Positions 28,944-42,475 of a stretch of DNA of 64,000 nt are shown piece by piece. The position numbers and the translations under genes are program-made. The notes under the pieces are model-generated. The model did no database searches, was not told the DNA's origin, and saw only the letters and a program-made list of their open reading frames with translations. Source of the stretch: Bacteroidia bacterium (GTDB taxonomy: Bacteria > Bacteroidota > Bacteroidia > UBA4408); contig JADLFI010000042.1 of NCBI GenBank assembly GCA_020845635.1, positions 124,001 through 188,000 on the forward strand. Direction: 5' to 3'. How positions within the stretch are numbered: the stretch's first letter is position 1; each line of letters starts with the position of its first letter.

Positions 28944-30653
28944 ATGAAAAAAATTTTACTTACTATTTTAATGAGCGCGGCTTTTTATATAGCACAAGCG
29001 CAAATTATTGTCAAAGTTTTAGAACCCGCTAATTTGGTGGGAACTTACGCCTTTACCTATGGCGACATTCCTGGTGGATGGGGCAGTCCGGACCTAAACA
29101 TACCGGCCAATGCAGTTCAAGATACACTTGCTTTTGTGAATGATGGATCTGTAGGTGATTCTTTGGGCTGTAATCCGCTTGTAAACGATAGTTTAATAAG
29201 CGGCAAAATTGCTGTAGTTTATCGTGGCAGTTGCGAGTTTGGCGAGAAAGCTTTTAGGGCAATGAATGCAGGTGCTGTTGCGGTAATTATAATTAATAAT
29301 ATAGGGGGCGCTCCGGTAGGCATGGCTCCAGGGACTTACGGTGCTCAGGTAACTATTCCGGTTGTAATGATTTCACAATCAGACGGTGCAGTATTGAGAA
29401 GTGAGATAGAAGCCGGCAACGTGGTAGCCTTTATTGGTAGCAAGGCAGGTGTTTTTGCTGACGACCTTGGTTTCTTAAAAGGCGATGTGCAAAGAGCAAG
29501 AAGATTCTCAAACATTAGTATGCTTTCGCAAAACGCTTCTGAATTCAACTCTAGAATGGGTTCATGGGTTCGTAACTATGGAAATCAAAATCAAACCGAT
29601 GCACTTTTAAATGCAACTGTGGTTTTTGGCAGCGATACTATTTATAACCAAACTTCGCTTCCTTTCAGTGTAAATTCAGGTGACTCTGCTTATGTATCCT
29701 TACCTACTTTCTCTCAAGCTTCTTATCCTGTTGGGTATTATTCTGTAAAATATACTGTTACTACCTTAAATCCGGATGGTGATAATAGCGATAACTCAGT
29801 TAACTCTGATTTTGCAATTAGCGAAAGTGAATACTCTTATGCGGCTACAAACCCCGTTACAGGAAAAGTAATACGCTCTGCGCATTATCGTCCAAGCGAT
29901 GTAACCGGTGAGTTTCAAAACTGTGTTGCTTTTCAAGATGCTAATGCAGGCAGGTTAAAAACAACAGGTATGAGTTTTGCTGTTACATCAAGCAACGATA
30001 CAGTACTTAATGATGAGTATATTCAGTTAAGAGCTTATAAGTGGGAAGATGTGTTTACAGACATTAATGATGTTACTTATGATAATTTAGTTTCAGTAGG
30101 TGAGATAGACTATAATTTCCCTGGTGATTTCCAAGACTCACTTATTTACTTATCTTTCCCTACTCCTATTCTTTTGGAGAATGATGCAAGATATTTGTTC
30201 TGCTTCTCTACCCCAAGTACTATCATGTATCTGGGTTCAAACCAAAGTATTGATTACAACACTGCCCAAGATACTATAGCGCAACCGTCATTTCCACTTT
30301 TTGTAGATAACTCTGCCTACCTTAATGGTTTTGGAACAGATATTGTACCTGCTTTATCAGTAAGAATGGAGTCAGCAACCGGAATTAATGAACAAAGCGC
30401 TGCCTCAAGAATAGTTCCTTTCCCTAATCCTGCTAATGATATCATTAATATTTCAGTAGGAAATTATACAGGTACTGCACAGTTAGAAGTGTTTGATATT
30501 ACCGGTAAAATGGTAAAATCAGAAAATGTAACTATTGGCAAAACATCTGTTTTACAATTAAATATTTCTGACATAAACAATGGGGTTTATGTATTTAAAC
30601 TTACTGCCAATGGTGAAACACCTAAATCGTTTAATGTGGTGATAAGTAAATAA
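28944..30653 (+). CDS. T9SS-sorted protein with PA domain
   Basis: A 569-residue secreted protein with a signal peptide ending IAQAQ. Residues about 60-160 form a protease-associated (PA) domain: SGKIAVVYRGSCEFGEKA, then AGAVAVIIINN and IPVVMISQSDGAVL. PA domains are lids or binding modules of surface proteases, yet no catalytic motif follows here. The middle is beta-rich. The last 80 residues or so (PFPNPANDIINISVG to PKSFNVVISK) are a type A T9SS sorting domain. It has its own promoter box and terminator. It is the first of three consecutive T9SS cargo genes. Confidence 0.85.
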   Translation: MKKILLTILMSAAFYIAQAQIIVKVLEPANLVGTYAFTYGDIPGGWGSPDLNIPANAVQDTLAFVNDGSVGDSLGCNPLVNDSLISGKIAVVYRGSCEFGEKAFRAMNAGAVAVIIINNIGGAPVGMAPGTYGAQVTIPVVMISQSDGAVLRSEIEAGNVVAFIGSKAGVFADDLGFLKGDVQRARRFSNISMLSQNASEFNSRMGSWVRNYGNQNQTDALLNATVVFGSDTIYNQTSLPFSVNSGDSAYVSLPTFSQASYPVGYYSVKYTVTTLNPDGDNSDNSVNSDFAISESEYSYAATNPVTGKVIRSAHYRPSDVTGEFQNCVAFQDANAGRLKTTGMSFAVTSSNDTVLNDEYIQLRAYKWEDVFTDINDVTYDNLVSVGEIDYNFPGDFQDSLIYLSFPTPILLENDARYLFCFSTPSTIMYLGSNQSIDYNTAQDTIAQPSFPLFVDNSAYLNGFGTDIVPALSVRMESATGINEQSAASRIVPFPNPANDIINISVGNYTGTAQLEVFDITGKMVKSENVTIGKTSVLQLNISDINNGVYVFKLTANGETPKSFNVVISK

Positions 30654-30846: not shown

Positions 30847-30877
30847 TTTGTTTTCAATAAATGCATTTCTAAATTTG
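30847..30877 (+). promoter_or_regulatory. Promoter (TTTG-N19-TAAATTTG) of the second T9SS cargo gene
   Basis: TTTG at 30847-30850 and TAAATTTG at 30870-30877 are spaced by 19 bp. The box overlaps an upstream in-frame GTG, so the ATG at 30922 is the start; the leader is about 38 nt. Confidence 0.75.
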
Positions 30878-30921
30878 TGTTTAATAAATCTATTAATAAT
30901 TATTATATAAATAAAACAAAG

Positions 30922-32886
30922 ATGAAGAAAAATCTACTTTTAGCTTTGGGTGTCGGGTTCTGCTTTTCTGCATTTGCACAGGCGCAATACCAACCTATAA
31001 AGCAAGATCGAATAGGTCTGAAATTTAATAAAAACGAAGGTGTTAACTTTAATGCAGTTGGTCATCCAAAATCTGTTCCTTCTATTAATAATAAAGGAAA
31101 TTCAAACAGAGCCGTTACCAAAACTGCATTTACCGGATCAAGAAATGCCTATGGTTTAATTGTTACCGAGTCAACATGTTTATCTGCTAACCAACAAACA
31201 AATACTATTTTGTTTACTCACCGCATTAGCGATTTGTTTACCTTACCGAACGACAATAGCGGTTTTATCCAAAACACTTTTTCTTCAAACTATGGTGCAA
31301 CCTGGGACTCGTTAATTCAAACCAACCACACTACACATTTGTGTCGTTACCCTAGTGGTGTTATTTTTAACCCTGCCGGAAATACTACTCCAGGCAACGC
31401 CTTTGCTACTGTTTCAGGTCCTATCACCGAAGGTTCAGGTTGGTTAGGAAATTTCTTTTCTTCGGCTAAATTAGATAGCACTAACATTTACCCATTTTAC
31501 CAAATGGATAACAATCCTGGAGTTACCAAGCAAGGTTTTGCCCGTATAGGGTACAACGCAACTGATGTAATGACTGTGGTTACCGGTGGTCTATATTTAG
31601 ACCCTAATGGTACTACTGTAGGTGCACAAGGATATAGGGGAGCTGTATTAAACTACGCCAGACCGGATAGTGCTAATCCAAATGCATTTGTTTGGACTAT
31701 TGATTCTATTAAACCTAATTTTAAAACTGATAATGCAGGTGACCGTTATGCTTGGACAATGGCTCTTACCGCTTGGAACAAGGCCGGAACCATTGGCTAT
31801 GTAATGTTTAATGCCATTGACGATTCTGCTTCAGGCCCTATGGCTTCATATACTCCGCTTGTTTACAAAACCACCGATGGTGGAACAAGTTGGAATCAAT
31901 TACCTCTATTTGATTTCTCCTCTTTGCCTGAAATAGCGCCAACTTTAATCCCCTCTACAGGTGGTGGTGCACAGAAAGCTTTCTTTGCTACCAATAAAGG
32001 AATAGATGCGGCAGTGGATGAGAATGGCCAATTACACGTTTTCTCTACTATAGTTAGTGGGTATTCTAACCATCCTGATTCATTAGATTATACTTATGCT
32101 TATAATGCAACCTCTCAGGTAAAAACATTCTATATGTTTGACACTTATACTACTGCTAATGGTTGGAATGCTACCTTGGTTGACTCTTTAAATACTGATA
32201 ATGCTGTAGATTACTCTCCTTTTATTGATGAAAATAGCGCTCCTTTTGAAATTGATGCCAGATTACAGATGAGCCGCTCAGATGATGGTTCTAAATTGTT
32301 CTTCTTTTGGTTAGACTCTGAGGCCGATATTAATGAACAAGTTGAAAATAGTAAACCAAATATTTTTGGTAAAGGATATGATGTAACTAATCAAAAATGG
32401 ACTTATACAAAGAAATTTACTGATGATGATCAAAATTATTTCATGTACGTTTCTGATATTGCCTTACAATCAGGAACAAACTATAAAATACCGGCAACAA
32501 TTTCTTTGCCTGCCCTTTGGCCAAATGATGTTAATATGATAAACCCAATGAGACATTATTTTGTAAGTGGTATTGAGTTTGATCAAGCTGATTTTGTAAA
32601 TGTTAAAAACATTGGTAAAGCTGATGCTTTTGAAGTTTCTGCCAATATTCCTAACCCTTTTAGTCAACTAACATCTTTCTATATCAATTTAACCCAATCT
32701 TCCAATGTTACTATTGATATTTATAACACCTTGGGTACAAAAGTTGTTTCTTACAATAAAGGAAACCTAACTGCCGGAAAGCATACTATAACTATTGACG
32801 GATCTGATTTAGCCTCTGGTTTGTACTTCTACACAGTTAATTCAGGAGGAAAAAGTGTAACCCGTAAAATGATCGTTAAAAAATAA
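30922..32886 (+). CDS. T9SS-sorted surface protein, unknown function
   Basis: A 654-residue protein from the ATG at 30922, which places the signal peptide (MKKNLLLALGVGFCFSAFAQA) correctly; an upstream in-frame GTG at 30877 lies in the promoter. The body contains BNR/sialidase-like stretches, such as NYGATWDSLIQT, VYKTTDGGTSWNQLPLF and LQMSRSDDGSKLFFFWLDSE, which suggest a beta-propeller. No catalytic Asp-box set is complete enough to call an enzyme. The C-terminus (NIPNPFSQLTSFYINL to VTRKMIVKK) is a type A T9SS sorting domain. Strong hairpins flank it on both sides. Confidence 0.85.
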   Translation: MKKNLLLALGVGFCFSAFAQAQYQPIKQDRIGLKFNKNEGVNFNAVGHPKSVPSINNKGNSNRAVTKTAFTGSRNAYGLIVTESTCLSANQQTNTILFTHRISDLFTLPNDNSGFIQNTFSSNYGATWDSLIQTNHTTHLCRYPSGVIFNPAGNTTPGNAFATVSGPITEGSGWLGNFFSSAKLDSTNIYPFYQMDNNPGVTKQGFARIGYNATDVMTVVTGGLYLDPNGTTVGAQGYRGAVLNYARPDSANPNAFVWTIDSIKPNFKTDNAGDRYAWTMALTAWNKAGTIGYVMFNAIDDSASGPMASYTPLVYKTTDGGTSWNQLPLFDFSSLPEIAPTLIPSTGGGAQKAFFATNKGIDAAVDENGQLHVFSTIVSGYSNHPDSLDYTYAYNATSQVKTFYMFDTYTTANGWNATLVDSLNTDNAVDYSPFIDENSAPFEIDARLQMSRSDDGSKLFFFWLDSEADINEQVENSKPNIFGKGYDVTNQKWTYTKKFTDDDQNYFMYVSDIALQSGTNYKIPATISLPALWPNDVNMINPMRHYFVSGIEFDQADFVNVKNIGKADAFEVSANIPNPFSQLTSFYINLTQSSNVTIDIYNTLGTKVVSYNKGNLTAGKHTITIDGSDLASGLYFYTVNSGGKSVTRKMIVKK

Positions 32887-33195: not shown

Positions 33196-33226
33196 TTTGT
33201 CGCTATAATACAAATGTTTATCTTTG
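33196..33226 (+). promoter_or_regulatory. Promoter (TTTG-N19-TATCTTTG) of the giant repeat protein
   Basis: TTTG at 33196-33199 and TATCTTTG at 33219-33226 are spaced by 19 bp. The box covers the upstream in-frame ATG at 33214, so 33259 is the true start with a leader of about 26 nt. Confidence 0.75.
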
Positions 33227-33258
33227 ATATTGTAAAATTTAAAGAAAAACGCATCAAC

Positions 33259-36200
33259 ATGAAAAAAGTATTATTCTTAGCTATTTTTATAGTACTAAAA
33301 GTTAATCTTTTGGCACAGCAGATAGTAGTTACATACCCTAACGGTGGTGAAGTACTTGTTGCAAACAGCAATAATTACATTATGTGGACAGATGCCTCAT
33401 TGCCTCAGGTTAAACTTGAGTATAGCACCAATGGCGGTAGCTCATGGAATTTTATTGACTTTGCTACTTCATTTTCCGGTAATGGGTTTTATACATGGTC
33501 AGTTCCCAATATACTTTCAACTAATTGCTTGGTAAGGGTTACCAATTCTGCTAACAACTCTGATTATGATGTAAGCAACAATCCATTTGAAATAAGTGCG
33601 CCCTATATAACGCTTTATTATCCCAACACTTTTCAATACTTTGCAGTTGGGGACTCAGAGGAAATTGCATGGAGTGCCCCGGGAGTTGATTTTATTGATA
33701 TAGAATATTCTATTGACGGAGGTTCTACTTTTATTCCTATTGCTTCCAATGTTGATGCATCTTTGGGACAATACACTTGGGGGCCCATTCCGAACACTCC
33801 ATCAAGTAACTGCCGGGTAAGACTAAAGCAAAGCAGCAATGCCCTAATTAATGATATGTCAGACTATGATTTTAGTATTGAAAACCCATTTATAACTGTA
33901 GACTACCCCGATGGTGGCGAAAGTTTTATTATTAACACAGGCGAATATATAGAGTGGAGTTCTGCAGGGGTGAGTGCTGTAAACATTGAATATTCTACTG
34001 ATGGTGGAGTTAATTGGGTTTCTTTGGCAACAAATATTTCTACCGTATGGTATTGGTGGGAGCCTATCCCAAATACACCATCTTCAAATTGTAAGGTAAG
34101 AGTAACTGATGCAAACAACCCACAGCTAAGTGATGAGTCAGATGGGGAATTTAGCATTGAGGGAGGAAGTATCACATTGTACTCGCCTAGCGGTGGTTCA
34201 AGTTATGCTATTGGTACCACTTGTCAAGTATGGTGGGATTCACAGGGGATTTCAGATGTTTTGATTGAATTTTCAAGTGATTCAATGGCAACATGGAGTA
34301 CAGTTATTAGTAATTATACTACGCCAGATTATTATGATTGGATTGTTCCGAACGTTATTTCAGACAAGTGTTTTATTAAAGTAAGTAATTCAAACGATTT
34401 ATCAGTATATGGTATAAATGATCAACCATTTTCTATCTCAACCCCAACATTAACATTGCTTTCGCCTAATGGTGGAGAAACTTTACAATCTGGAAATACG
34501 TTTTATTTAACTTATGACATATTTGGGATTGATTCGGTTGAAATTGACTATAGTATTGACGGTGGAAATAGTTGGATTAGTATAGGTACTCATGTTTACA
34601 CCTATGATGGTGTCAATTATTTTTCATGGGTAGTTCCCAATACTCCTTCTAATAATTGTTTGCTGAGGGTTACAGATGAAGCCACCGGCTTAATTACCGA
34701 TGTGAGTGATTTCCCATTTGCAATTGTGTTTGGCGGATTACCCACTTGTGCAAACGGATTCTTTCCACCTGATGGTATAACATCATACAGCAGAAATCCG
34801 ATACTTACATGGTATTCACCAATAACCCCCATTCAGGTTGATGCTTATGATTTATATTTTGGGACAAACTCTACGCCTCCTTTATATCAGGATAGTATAG
34901 TAAATACATCAATTGCGATTCAGAATTTGCTACCTGCAACAACTTACTATTGGAAAGTGGTTCCTAAGAGTGTTAATGGTGACGCTACAGGTTGTGTAAT
35001 TAATAGTTTCACTACTTCTGCCGCTAACGAGTATAACATGGATAACCAAACCGAAAATACATGCAGTGGTACATTTTATGATTTCTCAGGCCCTTGGTTA
35101 GATTATAGTTCTGAGGAGGATTATACTAAAACATTTTTCCCAACAACAGCCGGACAAGTTTTGAAATTTGATTTCGATATTTTTGAAACAGAACAAAGTT
35201 ATGATAAGCTTACTATTTATGATGGGGTAGATGTTAATGCCCCCATCATTGGTACATATAGTGGTGTAAACGGACCGGGTGCCGTGGTGGCTACTAATCC
35301 TCAGGGGGCTTTAACTTTTTTATGGCATTCTGACTATACATTTAATTTACCGGGTTGGAGTGCAAGCATATCTTGTGTTTCTCCGGGTACTCAGACTATT
35401 ACATTAATGTCGCCAAACGGTGGTGAAAGTTGGATAGGCAATACTTCTAAAACTATTTCATGGATTGCACAGAATATTACAAACGTTGACTTGCAATACT
35501 CTATTGATAGTGGAAATACATGGCTAACAATTGCTACTAATTTGGTCAATACCGGAAGTTATAATTGGCAAGTGCCTTTGCCTGCTTCAACAAATTGTTT
35601 TGTTAAAGTTATTTCCTCCAATAATCCTGCTGTTTTCGATGTAAGCAATGCCCGTTTTGAAATTCAATACGTGCCTATATATATTGATTTAATAAGCCCT
35701 AATACTGCACAAACCTTCTTAATTGGAACTAACACAACTATTTATTGGCAAAGTATGTTTGTTTCAAGTGTAAATATAGAATATTCAATAGACGCAGGAA
35801 ATTCTTGGTTAAGTATCATCTCCGGTTTGGCAACCAGTGATGGAAATAATTATTACTCATGGACTATTCCCGCCACCCCAAGTAATTTATGTTTGGTAAG
35901 GGTGAGTGATGCTACTAATCCTGCTATAAATGATTTTAGCCAAAGTGCATTTTACATTGTAGAGCCTTACCTTGAAGTATTTTCGCCTAATGGGGGAGAG
36001 GTTTTAAATGGGAACACTTATACTACCATTACCTGGAAAGGTTATTTGAATACCAATGCCGTAAAAATACAATATAGCAATAACAACGGATTTTCATGGA
36101 ATACCATAGCATCAAATATTTACCACATCAATGGAAATACAAATTACTATTCTTGGTTTGTAAACAATACTAATAGCAATAATTGCAGAGTAAAAGTGAG

Positions 36201-39147
36201 TCAAGTCTCGGATACCACCGTATTTGATGAAAGCAATAATGTGTTTACCATTAATTCCAGCGTTAGCCAAATAGAAATTATTCAAGCCAATGGGGGGGAA
36301 GTGTTAAGTGGCGGACTTAATTATAGTTTTCAATGGAGCTCGAGTTTTGTGTCGGGTAATTTTAAAGTACAACTTTCCACCAATAATGGAAGTTCGTGGA
36401 TAACATTGGCCAACAACGTGGTTAATTCAGGATATTTTAACTGGCTGGTACCAAATTTTGATAAAGATAGCTGCTTGCTTAAGGTCAGTGATGCACTAGA
36501 CACAACAATTTTTGATGTAAGTGACGGAATGTTTAGCATTGCACAAACTATCCCTTCAATAACTAACATAACTCCCGGGGGAGGCGAAATTTTAACAGCA
36601 GGTAGTTATGTACCTATTACTTGGAATAGCGTATTGGTGCCTTTGGTAGATATTTTATTTTCTAGCGATGGTGGTAATACTTACACTACCATAATTACTA
36701 ATTTAAATAATATTAATTACTTCCATTGGCTTGTACCAACAGTAGTTTCAACAGATTGCAGGATTAAAGTTAGAGCTGCCGGCAACAGCAATTTGTTTGA
36801 TGTTAGTCAAGCTAACTTCAGTATCATACAGGGAACTCCATTTATTTCTGTTGTACAACCCAATGGAGGAGAAAGTTTTATACAAAATACCGCAGGAAAC
36901 ATTATCAAATGGAGCGGTTCGGGCATTGGTTCTATTATAAAACTGGAATACTCTGCCGATGGAGGTGTAAGTTGGAATACTATTATCAATTCCTTTGCCT
37001 CTGCCAATAACATGTATTATTGGTTTACACCAAATATCATTTCTAGTCAATGCTTGGTTAAGGTTACAAGTGTTTCTAATCCGGCCTTATTTGACATAAG
37101 TGATGCTGAATTTAGCATAGGAGCTTCAACACCAACTTTAACTGTTGTTTCTCCTAACGGAGGAGAGTATTTGAATCAGGGATATTGGTTTAACATTACA
37201 TGGAATCGATATAATGTTCCATTGATTGACCTCAGTTTTAGTGATGATAACGGAACTACATGGAATCCTTTAATTACAGGAGTTAATGCCGATAGTTATT
37301 ATTGGAATGTCCCTAACATATCTTCAACACAATGTTTAGTAAAAGTAGAAAAAGCCGGTACAGGTACTCCTTTAAACGATATTAGTGATGCTGTGTTTAC
37401 CATTGGACCTGCATTACCTAACAGTAATACTTTACATATTGACTCCATAGTTTCGATACCTTTTTGTAAGTTAGATACTTTCTATGTCTACTACACAGCT
37501 AATGGTACTTACAATGCAGGTAATTCGTTTGATGTTCAGCTATCAGATAGTGTTGGAAATTTTAATAATGCTACTCTTATTGGGCATATATTTTCAACAG
37601 CAAATAGCGGTGTAATACCTTGCATAGTGCCTACTACAATTGGAAATGGTATTGGTTACAGAATAAGGATTCAATCAAGCAACTTACCAGCTACTAGTAT
37701 TGATAATGGCTTCGATATTATAATAAATAGTCCTCAGTTCGACTTTGCGGCAAACCAGCTTATTAAATATTTACCGGACGGAGCTGTAACCTTTTTTGTA
37801 ATCCCTCCACAAAGTCCTACCGCTACCTACAGTTGGGATTTTGGTGATGGTGCCACATCTACTAGTGCGCAACCAACACATAATTATTCTACCATCGGTA
37901 AATTTGATGTAAGTTTAACCATTGAAGATGCCGGTTGTATTGTTTCGGTTGATAAAACCAATTACATAAGAGTAGAACAATTATTTCCAAGCTATTCAAT
38001 AAATACCAATACTTTGGTAGATATTACTGACGTATCGATGCTTACACCCGATACTGCATTAATGACTTTAAGAGATGGAAGTTGTATTCGATCTTTTGAT
38101 GGAGGACTTACTTGGACACCACTAGTTACCGGATTAACTGCAGGTGTTGATACTTTACTCTCGTGCGATGTATATCCAAATATATGGAGAGTAGTAGGGT
38201 CTAATGGGAAAATATTAGAATCGCAGGATAACGGGCAAAGTTGGATACCTATGAATAGTAATACTACACAAAGAATGTATGGCGTTGCAACTTTTGATAA
38301 CAACAAAGCTTTTGCTGTTGCCGATTCAGGAGTAATTGTTAATTATGATGGTAATCAATGGACACAACAAAATACCGGAATAACTACACGCTTTTGGGAT
38401 GTTGCTGTTGATAAATCATCTCCTGCGGGCAATGCCTACGCTGTTGGTGGGGCAGGAGTAATTTTTAAGTATGATGGAACAAACTGGAATCCACAAGTGT
38501 CCGGTATCTCGGTTTCTTTATTCGGAACAAGTGTTATAGGAAATGATACGGTTTATGCCGTTGGTGGAGTTAATCAAGGGATTATCTTAAAAACTACTGA
38601 CGGAGGGCAAAATTGGAACACAGTTTTAAGTGGTGTAGATGTTAGCTTTAGAAGTGTTACCGGAATAGCTGATACGGCCTGGGCCAGTGCTACTGATGGA
38701 ATTGTTTATGAAACCAGAGATGGAGGGTTAAGCTGGGTAAGGTATAGTACCGGAAATACTCTTAATAATAATGGAATTGCTTTCAAGAAATCAAAAGGAT
38801 TAGTAGTAGGAACCAATGGACACGGAAGAGCCTTTGGTTTACAAACACCGCCAGATACAACATTGAAAGTAAAACAAAAATTTTATGCGCCTGATCAACT
38901 CATCTTATTCCCAAATCCGGCACAACACCTCATTACACTGAAAGGTAAATTTGATAAATCAACCGAAGTTTATTTCTCTATTAAAGACATTGAAGGAAAA
39001 GAAGTGATGACTTTACCTAAGCAAATTATTACTAATGGGGTTCTTAACTATAGTTTCAATACCGATAAATTAAGTAATGGTATTTACTTTGTATTTGTTA
39101 ATGATGGAATTAATTATTTTGTTAAACGATTAGTAATATCGCGTTAG
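33259..39147 (+). CDS. Giant T9SS-sorted multidomain surface protein with Ig-like repeats
   Basis: A 1,962-residue secreted protein; the signal peptide ends LLAQ. Domains in order are: five repeats of about 93 residues (21-490), each starting near PNGGE and containing a W-S/T strand, EYSxDGGxxW, W-x-VP and CLVRV; a fibronectin III-like domain (about 493-587, ATTYYWKVVPKS); a CUB-like domain (about 594-709, YDKLTIYDGVDVNAP); seven more repeats (about 713-1383); a beta-rich spacer; a PKD domain (about 1495-1573, YSWDFGDGATSTSAQPTHNY); a YCF48/BNR propeller (about 1583-1864); and a type A T9SS sorting domain (about 1883-1962). The repeats resemble the Ser/Thr-rich Kre9/KNH-type Ig fold. The likely role is adhesion or matrix building, by inference. 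It has its own promoter and terminator. Confidence 0.9.
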   Translation: MKKVLFLAIFIVLKVNLLAQQIVVTYPNGGEVLVANSNNYIMWTDASLPQVKLEYSTNGGSSWNFIDFATSFSGNGFYTWSVPNILSTNCLVRVTNSANNSDYDVSNNPFEISAPYITLYYPNTFQYFAVGDSEEIAWSAPGVDFIDIEYSIDGGSTFIPIASNVDASLGQYTWGPIPNTPSSNCRVRLKQSSNALINDMSDYDFSIENPFITVDYPDGGESFIINTGEYIEWSSAGVSAVNIEYSTDGGVNWVSLATNISTVWYWWEPIPNTPSSNCKVRVTDANNPQLSDESDGEFSIEGGSITLYSPSGGSSYAIGTTCQVWWDSQGISDVLIEFSSDSMATWSTVISNYTTPDYYDWIVPNVISDKCFIKVSNSNDLSVYGINDQPFSISTPTLTLLSPNGGETLQSGNTFYLTYDIFGIDSVEIDYSIDGGNSWISIGTHVYTYDGVNYFSWVVPNTPSNNCLLRVTDEATGLITDVSDFPFAIVFGGLPTCANGFFPPDGITSYSRNPILTWYSPITPIQVDAYDLYFGTNSTPPLYQDSIVNTSIAIQNLLPATTYYWKVVPKSVNGDATGCVINSFTTSAANEYNMDNQTENTCSGTFYDFSGPWLDYSSEEDYTKTFFPTTAGQVLKFDFDIFETEQSYDKLTIYDGVDVNAPIIGTYSGVNGPGAVVATNPQGALTFLWHSDYTFNLPGWSASISCVSPGTQTITLMSPNGGESWIGNTSKTISWIAQNITNVDLQYSIDSGNTWLTIATNLVNTGSYNWQVPLPASTNCFVKVISSNNPAVFDVSNARFEIQYVPIYIDLISPNTAQTFLIGTNTTIYWQSMFVSSVNIEYSIDAGNSWLSIISGLATSDGNNYYSWTIPATPSNLCLVRVSDATNPAINDFSQSAFYIVEPYLEVFSPNGGEVLNGNTYTTITWKGYLNTNAVKIQYSNNNGFSWNTIASNIYHINGNTNYYSWFVNNTNSNNCRVKVSQVSDTTVFDESNNVFTINSSVSQIEIIQANGGEVLSGGLNYSFQWSSSFVSGNFKVQLSTNNGSSWITLANNVVNSGYFNWLVPNFDKDSCLLKVSDALDTTIFDVSDGMFSIAQTIPSITNITPGGGEILTAGSYVPITWNSVLVPLVDILFSSDGGNTYTTIITNLNNINYFHWLVPTVVSTDCRIKVRAAGNSNLFDVSQANFSIIQGTPFISVVQPNGGESFIQNTAGNIIKWSGSGIGSIIKLEYSADGGVSWNTIINSFASANNMYYWFTPNIISSQCLVKVTSVSNPALFDISDAEFSIGASTPTLTVVSPNGGEYLNQGYWFNITWNRYNVPLIDLSFSDDNGTTWNPLITGVNADSYYWNVPNISSTQCLVKVEKAGTGTPLNDISDAVFTIGPALPNSNTLHIDSIVSIPFCKLDTFYVYYTANGTYNAGNSFDVQLSDSVGNFNNATLIGHIFSTANSGVIPCIVPTTIGNGIGYRIRIQSSNLPATSIDNGFDIIINSPQFDFAANQLIKYLPDGAVTFFVIPPQSPTATYSWDFGDGATSTSAQPTHNYSTIGKFDVSLTIEDAGCIVSVDKTNYIRVEQLFPSYSINTNTLVDITDVSMLTPDTALMTLRDGSCIRSFDGGLTWTPLVTGLTAGVDTLLSCDVYPNIWRVVGSNGKILESQDNGQSWIPMNSNTTQRMYGVATFDNNKAFAVADSGVIVNYDGNQWTQQNTGITTRFWDVAVDKSSPAGNAYAVGGAGVIFKYDGTNWNPQVSGISVSLFGTSVIGNDTVYAVGGVNQGIILKTTDGGQNWNTVLSGVDVSFRSVTGIADTAWASATDGIVYETRDGGLSWVRYSTGNTLNNNGIAFKKSKGLVVGTNGHGRAFGLQTPPDTTLKVKQKFYAPDQLILFPNPAQHLITLKGKFDKSTEVYFSIKDIEGKEVMTLPKQIITNGVLNYSFNTDKLSNGIYFVFVNDGINYFVKRLVISR
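33318..34730 (+). repeat. Ig-like repeats 1-5
   Basis: Five diverged in-frame units of about 280 bp, with anchor PNGGE-type codons near 33340, 33613, 33903, 34182 and 34460. Copies 2 and 4 have lost the exact PNGGE. DNA identity between units is modest, so this is an old protein repeat rather than a recent DNA duplication. Confidence 0.85.
35395..37405 (+). repeat. Ig-like repeats 6-12
   Basis: Seven in-frame units of about 290 bp, with anchors near 35406, 35692, 35980, 36282, 36568, 36854 and 37149. Each has the EYSxDGGxxW-like, VP and C-x-V(K/R)V positions, although units 9 and 10 are the most diverged. Confidence 0.85.
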
Positions 39148-39175: not shown

Positions 39176-39207
39176 ATAAAGGGTAGATATTTTAATCTAC
39201 CCTTTAT
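39176..39207 (+). terminator. Hairpin terminator after the giant protein gene
   Basis: A perfect 13-bp stem ATAAAGGGTAGAT/ATCTACCCTTTAT encloses a 6-nt loop, 28 bp beyond the stop codon. The T-run is short (TTTAT), so termination may be partial. Confidence 0.7.
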
Positions 39208-39250: not shown

Positions 39251-39281
39251 TTTGATTTCAAAAATACTTGTCTTAGGTTTG
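39251..39281 (+). promoter_or_regulatory. Sensor-gene promoter (TTTG-N19-TAGGTTTG), predicts leaderless mRNA
   Basis: TTTG at 39251-39254 and TAGGTTTG at 39274-39281 are spaced by 19 bp. The A of the ATG is the sixth base after the box, so transcription should start at or next to the start codon. Confidence 0.7.
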
Positions 39282-39286
39282 TAAAT

Positions 39287-42200
39287 ATGAATAGGCTATT
39301 CATTATATTATTTTTTACCCTGATTATTCCGCAAACTGTTTGTGGGCAGGGCAATAGTTTGTTAAGACAATTTTTGCCAAAAGAATATGGGGGGCTTGAC
39401 CAAAATTGGAGTATTGTTCAGGATAATGATGGGCTAATATATATCGGGAACAATATGGGATTGCTTATTTATGATGGGGTGAAATGGCAATCTTTAAAAA
39501 TTAATAAATCAGCCGTTCGGAGTTTAGATAAAAGTAATAACAATGTTATATATTATGGAGCCCAAGGCGATTTTGGATATTTAGTTGCCAATAGTAATGG
39601 CACCTTAGGTTTTAAAAGCCTGGTAAATTTACTTCCCGATTCATTGAAACAATTTGGCGATGTTTGGAAAACATATTGCCTTAATAACAAAGTTATTTTT
39701 CAGACCTATGATTATTTGTTTGTATATGAAAACCAAAAGTTAAGTGTTATAGAGTCAGAAAATTTATTTCATTTTGGTTATAAAAATGGGAATGAGTTTT
39801 TTATTATAGACAGAGGAATTGGATTAAAAAAGCTGGTAGGAAACTCTCTTGAATTATTGAATAGAGGAGATTTTTTTGCCAACCTGAGAATATATGGTTG
39901 GATAAATCAAAAGAACTATTCGCTTATTGCAACCAGAGAAAGTGGAATTTTTAAAATAAGTTTAAGTAATGATGGAATTGAAAATATTGAGCGTTTTGAA
40001 ACAGAAATAGATAAAAATTTAAAGGAGGGCGAAGTTTATTGTGCCAAATTATTAAATAACGGGAATATGGCATTTGGCACCCTTTATCAGGGATTGTTTA
40101 TTACCGACTCAAATGGTAAATTATTGCAGGTTATTGATAAATTAACCGGATTGAAAAGCGAAATGATAAATGATTTTTATGAGGATTATCAAGAAGGTTT
40201 ATGGCTGGCTTTAGATATTGGTATAGCACGTGTTGAGGCCAATAGCGGGTTTAAATTTATTAATGAAGTTGATGGTTTGGAAGGAATAGTGACCTCGGTT
40301 GTTAATTTTAATGATTATTTATATTGCTCAACTAATAAAGGGCTTTTCAAAATCTCAAAAAATAAAGTACAAAAGGTTGAAAATTTTAATCAAGATATAA
40401 GGCAGTTGCTGGTTGTTGGTGAAGACAAATCAGCTTCTCTACTCATCTTAACGGAATCAGGTACCTATAAATTATCACAATCAGGGCAAATTCTCCAATT
40501 AAATAAAGAAGATGGTAGGTACATTTTACCTAGTAAATTTTATTCGGGTTATTATTATTTAGGAACTAAATCAGGTCTTTGTGTTCTGAACCTGAATGAA
40601 AATCATTTGAAAAAATATGATGAACAGGATATTTTTGAAGTAAGACGGATAGTTGAAGAAAATGATTCTATAATTTGGATAGGCACTGCCTATAATGGCG
40701 TTTATAGGATAGCAAATGCAATAAATGGAAAATATAGAACAAAACTTTATTCAACAGATAACGGACTGCCTACAGAGTTATACAATTTACCTTTTGAAGT
40801 CAATCAAAAAATTCTTTTTGGAACTTTTAGGGGAATTTATGAATATAATAAATCTTCCGATAGGTTTGAGCTATCAAATAATTTAGCACCAAACAATTAT
40901 ACTCAGAATGACCAAATATACCAAATAATTGAAGGGTACGATAACAACATTTGGTTATTTAGAACAAATGAAGAATTACATGAGTTTATTTTATTCAATA
41001 CCAAAACCGGAAGCGCTAAATTTCCGTTAAGGCGACTTGCAGAATATGATATTTATCAAACCATTTATGTAGAAAGCAAATCAATAACCTGGTTTGGAGG
41101 CACAGACGGATTATTTCGGTATGATGCTTCTATTTCAGATGTGGGGAGTATGAATTTTAAAACAAAAATTAGAGGAGTATATAGTGGAAATGATACGCTT
41201 TTTGGAGGATATTTTGAAGGAGATGAAACAAATGAAGAAGTAAGGGCTAAGTTAAATTATAACCTCAATAACATAAATTTTGATTTTGTTGGACTTAGCT
41301 TTGATAATGACAAAGAAAATGTTTACAGCTATTACCTTGAAGGGTTTGATAATTCTTGGAGTAATTGGACAAGTGAATCGAAAAAGAGTTACACCAATCT
41401 TTATGAAGGTACATACACCTTTCATGTAAAATCAAAAAATATTTATGGAAAAGAAGGAGCTGAGGACGTATATGAATTTGTTATTCTGCCCCCTTGGTAT
41501 CGTACAGGTTGGGCATATCTCTTATACACAATAGGAATAATATTATTGATTTACTTAATTACACAAATAAGCGTTAGAAGATTAAAGAGAGCAAAAATTA
41601 AACTGGAAGCTATTGTAGAAAGCAGAACTGCTGAGGTAGTTGCAGAAAAAGAGGAGGTAGAAAAACAAAAGAAAATTATAGAACTAAAAAACAAAGATAT
41701 TACCGATAGTATAAACTATGCTCAAAAAATACAGCAAGCCATACTTCCATTACCTGAAGATTTCAGCAAAGTATTTCCTAATTCCTTTATATATTTTCAA
41801 CCACGAGATATTGTAAGTGGTGATTTTTATTGGTTTTATAAACCAATAAAAAGCGAATTTAATCATGTGTATTTTGCCATGGCCGATTGCACCGGGCACG
41901 GAGTACCCGGGGCTTTCATGAGTATGATTGGAAATACTCTTTTAAATGAAATATTAAATGAGAAACAAATTTATAATACTGATGAAATATTAAATCATTT
42001 ACACAAAGAAGTGCGCGAAGTACTAAAACAAAATATAGCCCAAAACACCACTAATGATGGAATGGATATTGCCTTATGTAGGCTCAATTTAGATACTTTT
42101 GAACTTCAATATTCAGGTGCCAACAGGCCATTGTATATTTTTAAACATTTACCCAATCAAATAGAGTTTTTTGATATAAAACCCAATAAGTTTCCTATTG

Positions 42201-42475
42201 GAGGTTACCAAAATGAAGAAGCCAGAAATTTCAATGCTCATTTAATACAATTAAGCAAAAATGATACTTTCTATATATTTAGTGATGGTTATGCCGACCA
42301 GTTTGGCGGTGAGTTAAACAAAAAGTTTATGGTAAGGCGTTTGCAGAAAGAGCTTATGGCAATGCAAACCAAGCCTATGTCAACACAAAGACAATTGGTT
42401 GAAAAACTTATTATGGACTGGAAAGGCTCAAGAGAGCAGGTTGATGATATCTTAATGATAGGGGTTAGATTGTAA
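39287..42475 (+). CDS. Two-component-propeller sensor with SpoIIE/PP2C phosphatase output
   Basis: A 1,062-residue membrane sensor from the ATG at 39287 (a longer frame to 39206 lies over the terminator and promoter). The signal peptide ends TVCGQ. Periplasmic Reg_prop propeller blades follow (about 30-650; for example WSIVQDNDGLIYIGNNMGLLIYDG), then a Y_Y_Y domain (about 655-735), one membrane helix (about 742-762), a coiled coil, and a SpoIIE domain (about 835-1062) with FQPRDIVSGDFYWF and MADCTGHGVPGAFMSMIGN supplying the metal-binding Asp residues. Such proteins probably dephosphorylate anti-sigma antagonists or related targets in response to an external ligand. No partner gene is adjacent. 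Confidence 0.93.
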   Translation: MNRLFIILFFTLIIPQTVCGQGNSLLRQFLPKEYGGLDQNWSIVQDNDGLIYIGNNMGLLIYDGVKWQSLKINKSAVRSLDKSNNNVIYYGAQGDFGYLVANSNGTLGFKSLVNLLPDSLKQFGDVWKTYCLNNKVIFQTYDYLFVYENQKLSVIESENLFHFGYKNGNEFFIIDRGIGLKKLVGNSLELLNRGDFFANLRIYGWINQKNYSLIATRESGIFKISLSNDGIENIERFETEIDKNLKEGEVYCAKLLNNGNMAFGTLYQGLFITDSNGKLLQVIDKLTGLKSEMINDFYEDYQEGLWLALDIGIARVEANSGFKFINEVDGLEGIVTSVVNFNDYLYCSTNKGLFKISKNKVQKVENFNQDIRQLLVVGEDKSASLLILTESGTYKLSQSGQILQLNKEDGRYILPSKFYSGYYYLGTKSGLCVLNLNENHLKKYDEQDIFEVRRIVEENDSIIWIGTAYNGVYRIANAINGKYRTKLYSTDNGLPTELYNLPFEVNQKILFGTFRGIYEYNKSSDRFELSNNLAPNNYTQNDQIYQIIEGYDNNIWLFRTNEELHEFILFNTKTGSAKFPLRRLAEYDIYQTIYVESKSITWFGGTDGLFRYDASISDVGSMNFKTKIRGVYSGNDTLFGGYFEGDETNEEVRAKLNYNLNNINFDFVGLSFDNDKENVYSYYLEGFDNSWSNWTSESKKSYTNLYEGTYTFHVKSKNIYGKEGAEDVYEFVILPPWYRTGWAYLLYTIGIILLIYLITQISVRRLKRAKIKLEAIVESRTAEVVAEKEEVEKQKKIIELKNKDITDSINYAQKIQQAILPLPEDFSKVFPNSFIYFQPRDIVSGDFYWFYKPIKSEFNHVYFAMADCTGHGVPGAFMSMIGNTLLNEILNEKQIYNTDEILNHLHKEVREVLKQNIAQNTTNDGMDIALCRLNLDTFELQYSGANRPLYIFKHLPNQIEFFDIKPNKFPIGGYQNEEARNFNAHLIQLSKNDTFYIFSDGYADQFGGELNKKFMVRRLQKELMAMQTKPMSTQRQLVEKLIMDWKGSREQVDDILMIGVRL

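Follow-up and report, generated by a model that had tools for sequence, protein, structure and literature searches.

A predicted type IX-secreted surface protein of twelve Ig-like Asp-box repeats and its adjacent SpoIIE-type sensor gene in Bacteroidia

Large surface proteins carried by the type IX secretion system (T9SS) are numerous in Bacteroidia, and most of them are poorly understood. The type A sorting domains of T9SS cargo are cleaved and the substrates joined by PorU to a lipopolysaccharide, A-LPS (PMC10202324). In the PorA-PorXY system of Porphyromonas gingivalis, it has been proposed that a surface protein with a sorting domain passes a signal from the cell surface on to a sensor in the envelope (PMC7712824), and in BT4663 a periplasmic part of the Reg_prop/Y_Y_Y kind binds disaccharides (PMC5121618). 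Immunoglobulin (Ig)-like domains with a single Asp-box hairpin each have been described in chitobiase (CHB_HEX_C) and sulfite oxidase (Mo-co_dimer) (PMC2716378). Here we analyse a surface protein gene with twelve Ig-like Asp-box repeats, and the sensor gene beside it, in a 64,000-nucleotide stretch of a Bacteroidia bacterium genome (GCA_020845635.1, contig JADLFI010000042.1, positions 124,001 to 188,000; hereafter the window). The surface protein belongs to an ordinary class; its pairing with the sensor is the new part.

The surface protein resembles type A T9SS cargo (PF18962/TIGR04183) in its signal-peptide-like N-terminus, its type A C-terminal domain and the presence of the translocon in the genome, and differs in its specific module order; no Pfam or NCBIfam model was found for the whole architecture. 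This order is signal peptide, five repeats, a fibronectin type III (FnIII)-like domain, CUB, seven repeats, an unnamed domain (D13), PKD, a YCF48/BNR propeller and a type A sorting domain, placed in the window as follows:

33196..33226, + strand: Bacteroidota-type promoter-like box of the surface gene, TTTG-N19-TATCTTTG
33259..39147, + strand: surface protein gene, 1,962 amino acids (aa), start Met common to two orthologs
33259..33318, + strand: signal peptide, a hydrophobic N-terminus read from the sequence
33319..33600, + strand: Ig-like Asp-box repeat 1
33601..33885, + strand: Ig-like Asp-box repeat 2
33886..34164, + strand: Ig-like Asp-box repeat 3
34165..34446, + strand: Ig-like Asp-box repeat 4, Asp-box degenerate
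34447..34734, + strand: Ig-like Asp-box repeat 5
34735..35031, + strand: FnIII-like domain, first half of an inserted cassette, conserved Cys pair (Pfam fn3 and profile)
35032..35388, + strand: CUB domain, second half of the cassette, conserved Cys pair (Pfam CUB and profile)
35398..35682, + strand: Ig-like Asp-box repeat 6
35683..35973, + strand: Ig-like Asp-box repeat 7
35974..36261, + strand: Ig-like Asp-box repeat 8
36262..36552, + strand: Ig-like Asp-box repeat 9
36553..36837, + strand: Ig-like Asp-box repeat 10, in the AlphaFold2 model
36838..37128, + strand: Ig-like Asp-box repeat 11, in the AlphaFold2 model
37129..37425, + strand: Ig-like Asp-box repeat 12
37426..37743, + strand: D13, unnamed conserved domain between repeat 12 and PKD, conserved Cys pair
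37744..37983, + strand: PKD domain (PKD_4, 51.8 bits, cut-off 27)
37984..38868, + strand: YCF48/BNR Asp-box propeller (PSII_BNR 44.1 bits and BNR 32.3 bits, cut-off 27 each)
38899..39144, + strand: type A T9SS C-terminal sorting domain (PF18962, 38.3 bits, cut-off 27; TIGR04183, 24.2 bits, cut-off 23)

From its sequence and a structural model of two repeats, this protein is probably, though by no means assuredly, a T9SS-exported surface rod that acts as an adhesin or matrix element. A functional tie to the adjacent sensor is a separate and weaker proposition, possible but not one to presume. The fixed order of twelve repeats, the FnIII-CUB cassette and, above all, the conserved partner sensor offer a testable entry to a possible link between such surface proteins and signalling.

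The 12 repeats, of 93-99 aa each, form a 5 + 7 array in which mean pairwise identity is 35.7% for protein (26.6-51.1) and 48.2% for codon-aligned DNA (43.0-55.6). Single-repeat profile searches recovered every left-out repeat (leave-one-out hidden Markov models, 12/12 at 72.5-99.1 bits, against at most 6.7 bits in 200 protein shuffles), so that the twelve repeats and their split stand where the original prediction, made from the sequence alone, had placed them. Five columns are invariant across the repeats (one Ser, one Trp, one Cys, one Phe and one Ile), a P-N-G-G-E motif opens the repeats, and an Asp-box of the S-x-D-x-G-x-T-W type occupies the equivalent place in each, degenerate in repeat 4. 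Synonymous differences per site (pS) among repeats, at 0.72, are close to the 0.73 of random codon pairs, while nonsynonymous differences (pN) are 0.46 against 0.71, and pS exceeds pN in 66/66 repeat pairs; among three orthologs compared, pS is 0.71-0.74 and pN 0.23. These values support the earlier claim that the repeats are ancient, with little DNA identity left, and under protein-level constraint. The lone repeat Cys is present in 12/12 repeats here and in 45/47 across four orthologs. A disulfide role was set aside, since the strand pattern C-x-I-x-V should turn this Cys inward; a buried core residue would be the simpler reading. Several paralog repeats, read by eye, have another residue at this position.

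AlphaFold2 modelled repeats 10-11 as Ig-like sandwiches with a predicted local distance difference test (pLDDT) score of 94.5 and a predicted template modelling (pTM) score of 0.63, the input being 18 aligned pairs from the window and locus L045; for the remaining ten repeats the same fold is inferred by alignment. Foldseek matches to the model are tandem FnIII-like/Ig modules (top, the CbhA FnIII-like module, E 5.7e-7; titin Z1Z2, 3.9e-6), and VIA-align matches are complement C3/C5 chains and titin FnIII tandems, and, at the level of one domain, part of a biofilm-associated protein (Z 8.3, 2.7 Å, 87 residues); Z values of 8-9 with so common a fold indicate the fold class only. The model thus makes the repeats two-sheet beta sandwiches of predicted Ig type, in line with the original prediction. 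Chitobiase and sulfite oxidase domains are absent among the VIA-align and Foldseek matches listed, which excludes nothing.

The Pfam annotation that this array attracts is Reelin subrepeat B (PF21471), which scores 59.5 bits against the whole protein (cut-off 27) when summed over the repeats. The best stretch aligns model positions 57-112 of 127 only; single repeats reach E 2e-4 at best, 7/12 are at E 1 or lower, and repeat 1 alone scores 19.7 bits. Reelin subrepeat B and the repeats share one Asp-box per module and differ in the EGF module, for which no Pfam match was found in the surface protein at E 0.1. Homology to reelin was therefore rejected: the match reflects the Asp-box hairpin present in each repeat, summed over the array, and covers a partial subrepeat. 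Recognising the repeat as an Asp-box Ig module corrects a misleading annotation. Single repeats also gave weak Pfam matches to CHB_HEX_C (2/12, best E 0.15), Kre9_KNH (2/12, 0.034) and Mo-co_dimer (1/12, 0.095). All three share the Ig-like sandwich with the repeats, and the first two enzymes named above, chitobiase and sulfite oxidase, also the Asp-box hairpin; the surface protein differs from them in its tandem array of 12, its conserved lone Cys and its P-N-G-G-E opening. Weak matches to BNR, DUF6580, the GH49 N-terminal Ig domain, F5/8 type C and Big_7 were taken as chance or fold-level similarity. No Pfam or NCBIfam model matches the repeat as a whole at cut-off, and the literature searched, which leaves most subscription papers outside it, yielded nothing on this repeat type, on FnIII-CUB units in Bacteroidota or on T9SS-SpoIIE pairs.

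Orthologs of the surface protein were found in 3/3 genus mates at 62-65% identity with unchanged domain order. Three complete copies, the window genome included, keep 12 repeats and the 5 + 7 split, and an ortholog copy that lacks its 5′ end has 11 visible repeats, their order unchanged. In a tree of 97 repeats including those of paralogs, 12/12 repeat positions are monophyletic across four genomes, as read without printed branch supports. A paralog on contig C3 of 1,633 aa has 11 repeats, D13, a PKD-like domain, a propeller and a sorting domain and no FnIII-CUB, and its counterparts have 14 repeats in G001, 11 in G003 and 11 plus 3 in two frames in G002. The G002 copy (contig C207, L050) lies in two adjacent frames of 11 and 3 repeats, where the G001 counterpart has its 14 in a single frame.

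This contrast bears on an unlikely alternative, in which the protein is a passive surface-layer or matrix scaffold, its array serves as spacer or coat with no specific ligand, and the adjacent sensor has nothing to do with it. The composition would suit it (Asn/Ser/Thr-rich and acidic, net charge about -91), as would the absence of any catalytic domain at cut-off among the Pfam and NCBIfam family matches of the surface protein, and such repeats are common in the phylum, the repeat profile matching 93/198 sampled genomes, window genome included. A mere spacer needs neither FnIII-CUB, nor propeller, nor fixed repeat order, yet all are conserved over 35-38% protein divergence, whereas the paralog varies from 11 to 14 repeats.

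The FnIII and CUB domains form a two-domain unit and lie between repeats 5 and 6, where the original prediction had put them. The CUB assignment stands (PF00431, 26.0 bits scanned alone against a cut-off of 21.4; 20.7, just under it, within the whole protein), whereas FnIII (PF00041) reaches 18.8 bits alone, under its cut-off of 25; we name this domain FnIII-like because a profile of 18 cassettes matches the FnIII proteins titin (2.5e-8) and neogenin (2.4e-6). The same profile matches the CUB proteins cubilin (6.2e-26) and neuropilin-2 (1.8e-16), and four Cys are invariant in 18/18 aligned cassettes. At what we take to be the CUB calcium-site positions, the window protein has Glu/Asp/Asp, the third being Asn in the G003 ortholog. 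FnIII-CUB profile matches occur in 110/149 genomes of the class, window genome included, most of the matches listed covering mainly the CUB part. Neither module type is peculiar to animals, both being common in the phylum or class, so the “animal-like” character from which an adhesin had been argued is a weak argument. Giant proteins of another Bacteroidia family share the two-domain unit and its four invariant Cys, and carry several to many units where the window protein has one copy inside an Ig array: tandem FnIII-CUB arrays lie in frames of 3,283-3,782 aa in four genomes (G009, G055, G091 and G123; loci L083, L082, L081 and L028). In the family of the window genome, G006 has at least 3 units in one 2,513-aa frame.

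The cassette probably interrupted the repeat array, since both the paralog and a more distant relative are without it; insertion in an ancestor of the genus is likely on these sequences, loss elsewhere being the other course. The distant relative, from another genus of the same family (G007), has 5 repeats, D13, PKD and a propeller, a different N-terminal part and no FnIII-CUB. Its tail is related to that of the window gene, as seen from a score of 265 bits over D13-PKD-propeller and from a tail tree of 10 rows that groups this cassette-less protein with the window type (support 90/91, midpoint rooting, with the long-branched G014 among the rows). Long matches to this tail in 8 genomes of the family comprise four orthologs, two G007 contigs and four paralogs, and the C-terminal half is, by sequence, a shared chassis. 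The window genome has such repeats in two proteins, with 12 and 11 copies, besides one weak match. A scan of genome contigs returned one relative.

Conservation differs along the rod: repeats 1-5 with FnIII and CUB average 57.2%, against 66.1% for repeats 6-12 (Mann-Whitney p 0.007, 7 versus 7 domains, a grouping chosen after the values had been seen), and repeats 1-5 alone against repeats 6-12 give p 0.018. Lower conservation of the outer part would fit contact with variable partners, and is suggestive only.

Behind the repeats, the PKD domain, propeller and sorting domain of the original prediction all score over their cut-offs, and D13, which precedes them, had been missed. D13 has no Pfam and no PDB match at E 1; it is 74-78% identical among four orthologs, with its Cys pair in 4/4. 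Besides the paralog, at least 7 further proteins of the genome match D13 in whole or in part. The propeller is of the Ycf48 kind and not a Ycf48, as the Ycf48 equivalog NF010237 scores 39.3 bits against a cut-off of 326. Among known proteins with an Asp-box propeller, many are glycosidases (PMC2716378), and disaccharide sensors, BT4663 for one, have the Reg_prop/Y_Y_Y make-up seen in the sensor (PMC5121618). Both points would suit another role, in which the propeller or repeats bind or cleave polysaccharide and the sensor phosphatase responds to released sugar. We consider such carbohydrate processing or glycan sensing very unlikely, as the propeller is over cut-off for YCF48 and plain BNR models and not for a glycoside hydrolase family, and no polysaccharide-utilisation genes were recognised among the five neighbouring proteins scanned.

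Export by the T9SS is consistent with the rest of the genome. The translocon protein SprA is over cut-off in 11/11 genomes searched, window genome included, and 122 sorting-domain matches were found in the window genome (150/171 candidates scored; two contain stop codons). GldJ, also over cut-off there, raises the prospect that the protein is a gliding adhesin like SprB or RemA, which the GldLM motor would carry over the cell surface. A link between GldJ and secretion exists as well, and we count this against a gliding role. A long repetitive T9SS surface protein would suit such a role, as would the type A sorting domain, found also in the gliding adhesin RemA (PMC10202324); no type B domain (PF13585/TIGR04131), the signal of the main adhesin SprB by the type assignment of the same source, matched the surface protein at E 0.1. 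At the G001 ortholog, the one locus examined in this respect, gldG and gldF are found some 5 kb upstream (L048, 2758-5227), but on the other strand and with no relative among 20 window genes compared. Gliding thus has little chance of being the function, and an adhesin or matrix rod remains our preferred reading.

The partner sensor and the elements between the two genes are placed as follows:

39176..39207, unstranded: inverted repeat between the surface and sensor genes, terminator-like, a weak call (5 sites against 6.0 expected in shuffles)
39251..39281, + strand: promoter-like box only a few bases from the ATG of the sensor gene, on its 5′ side
39287..42475, + strand: partner gene, 1,062 aa, with hydrophobic N-terminus, Reg_prop propeller, Y_Y_Y, one transmembrane helix and SpoIIE-type phosphatase

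Reg_prop, Y_Y_Y and SpoIIE are all over their Pfam cut-offs, the membrane helix spans residues 740-764, and what we take to be the acidic motifs of a SpoIIE-type phosphatase are present. The C-terminal phosphatase is the point of likeness to the biofilm phosphatase SiaA, whose model (NF038263) aligns with this part only and, at about 169.5 bits, falls far below its cut-off of 700.

The sensor gene lies 3′ of the surface gene on the same strand in 5/5 loci judged, across two genera (G000, G001, G002, G003 and G007). Comparison of 20 window genes with the related loci, over stretches of 6-30 kb, gave full-length relatives only for the surface and sensor genes and none for the other 18; one further match, of 72 residues at 29% identity, is to another open reading frame also matched by a sorting-domain query. 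The sensor keeps its place next to the surface gene where the other neighbours tested differ, and this again speaks against a passive scaffold with an unrelated neighbour. Around the paralog the sensor gene was not found within 12-13 kb at 4/4 loci. Sensor relatives are numerous, with 12-21 matching stretches per genome, some of them gene pieces or limited to the sensor part, so a single-copy sensor does not account for the pairing being kept. The best match of the G007 sensor among nine SpoIIE proteins of the window genome is the adjacent sensor (446 bits; next, 387). Of the other SpoIIE loci of the genome (n = 8), 1/8 is immediately preceded by a sorting-domain gene of the same strand, and 1/8 has a convergent one. 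A general link between T9SS cargo and SpoIIE sensors was accordingly rejected as a rule, and the pairing seems to be particular to this gene. On contig C30 of the window genome (L121, 3476-7499) we noted a second pair, a T9SS sorting-domain gene with a shorter SpoIIE-type gene directly after it.

By analogy with PorA-PorXY, a relay can be proposed for this pair; PorA has a FimH-like domain and works through a sensor kinase, whereas the partner here is a propeller/SpoIIE phosphatase. The surface protein would be exported by Sec and then secreted by the type IX system, its C-terminal domain would be cleaved at the outer surface and the protein joined to lipopolysaccharide, as in the known pathway, which would set the propeller near the membrane and repeats 1-5 farthest out. 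If extended, the rod might measure perhaps 40-60 nm, at an estimated 4 nm or so per module, and a glycan, a neighbouring cell or the matrix would meet its CUB/FnIII and outer repeats. The periplasmic propeller of the sensor could then read an envelope or ligand signal that depends on the surface protein's state, and hand it on to the cytoplasmic phosphatase. In this outside-in pair, a rather doubtful proposal on sequence grounds, the Ig/FnIII/CUB rod would sense contact or ligand and the sensor would dephosphorylate a cytoplasmic anti-sigma-factor antagonist or similar switch. If it is true, surface sensing in this part of the phylum can end in a phosphatase and not a histidine kinase.

Several observations weigh against a binding rod and a paired sensor. 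Variability is no sufficient mark of a binding region, since the sorting domain (51.8%) varies as much as the outer part does. The geometry between repeats is uncertain at a pTM of 0.63, which leaves the extended rod inferred and not read from the model; the AlphaFold2 model of FnIII-CUB, with 2 sequences as input, is poor (pLDDT 46.7). The conserved neighbourhood amounts to 5 loci, all from one family, the contig ends within the sensor gene in G002 and G007, and the G007 copy is only 34% identical; a second related G007 copy (contig C148) runs off its contig and stands outside the five-locus count. With as many as 122 sorting-domain matches in the genome, finding a T9SS gene next to a sensor is no rarity per se. 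Each gene has its own promoter-like box, with a hairpin between them, which makes co-transcription a conjecture.

These boxes also bear on where the genes begin. In the window, 11 boxes fit TTTG, 18-20 bases and TAnnTTTG, presumably the Bacteroidota promoter consensus, against 2.78 expected (0/100 shuffles reach 11). The open frame of the surface gene (33214..39147, + strand) would encode 1977 aa counted from its first ATG. A start at 33259 is better than one at 33214, because the aligned Met is also the first residue in both orthologs whose 5′ ends are complete and the promoter-like box, ending at 33226, would fall inside the longer version; the predicted length of 1,962 residues is thereby borne out. 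Upstream of the sensor start codon, TAGGTTTG (TAnnTTTG type) lies within a few bases in the window (39251-39289), G001 and G003, whereas both parts of the box are found only in the window and G001. A box so near the start codon would be in keeping with a sensor transcript whose 5′ leader is very short or missing. On the other side, the surface gene is the last of three successive co-directional genes that all encode type A T9SS sorting domains (28944-30653, 30877-32886 and 33259-39147), the first of which has a PA domain and matches M36 metallopeptidase models in parts only.

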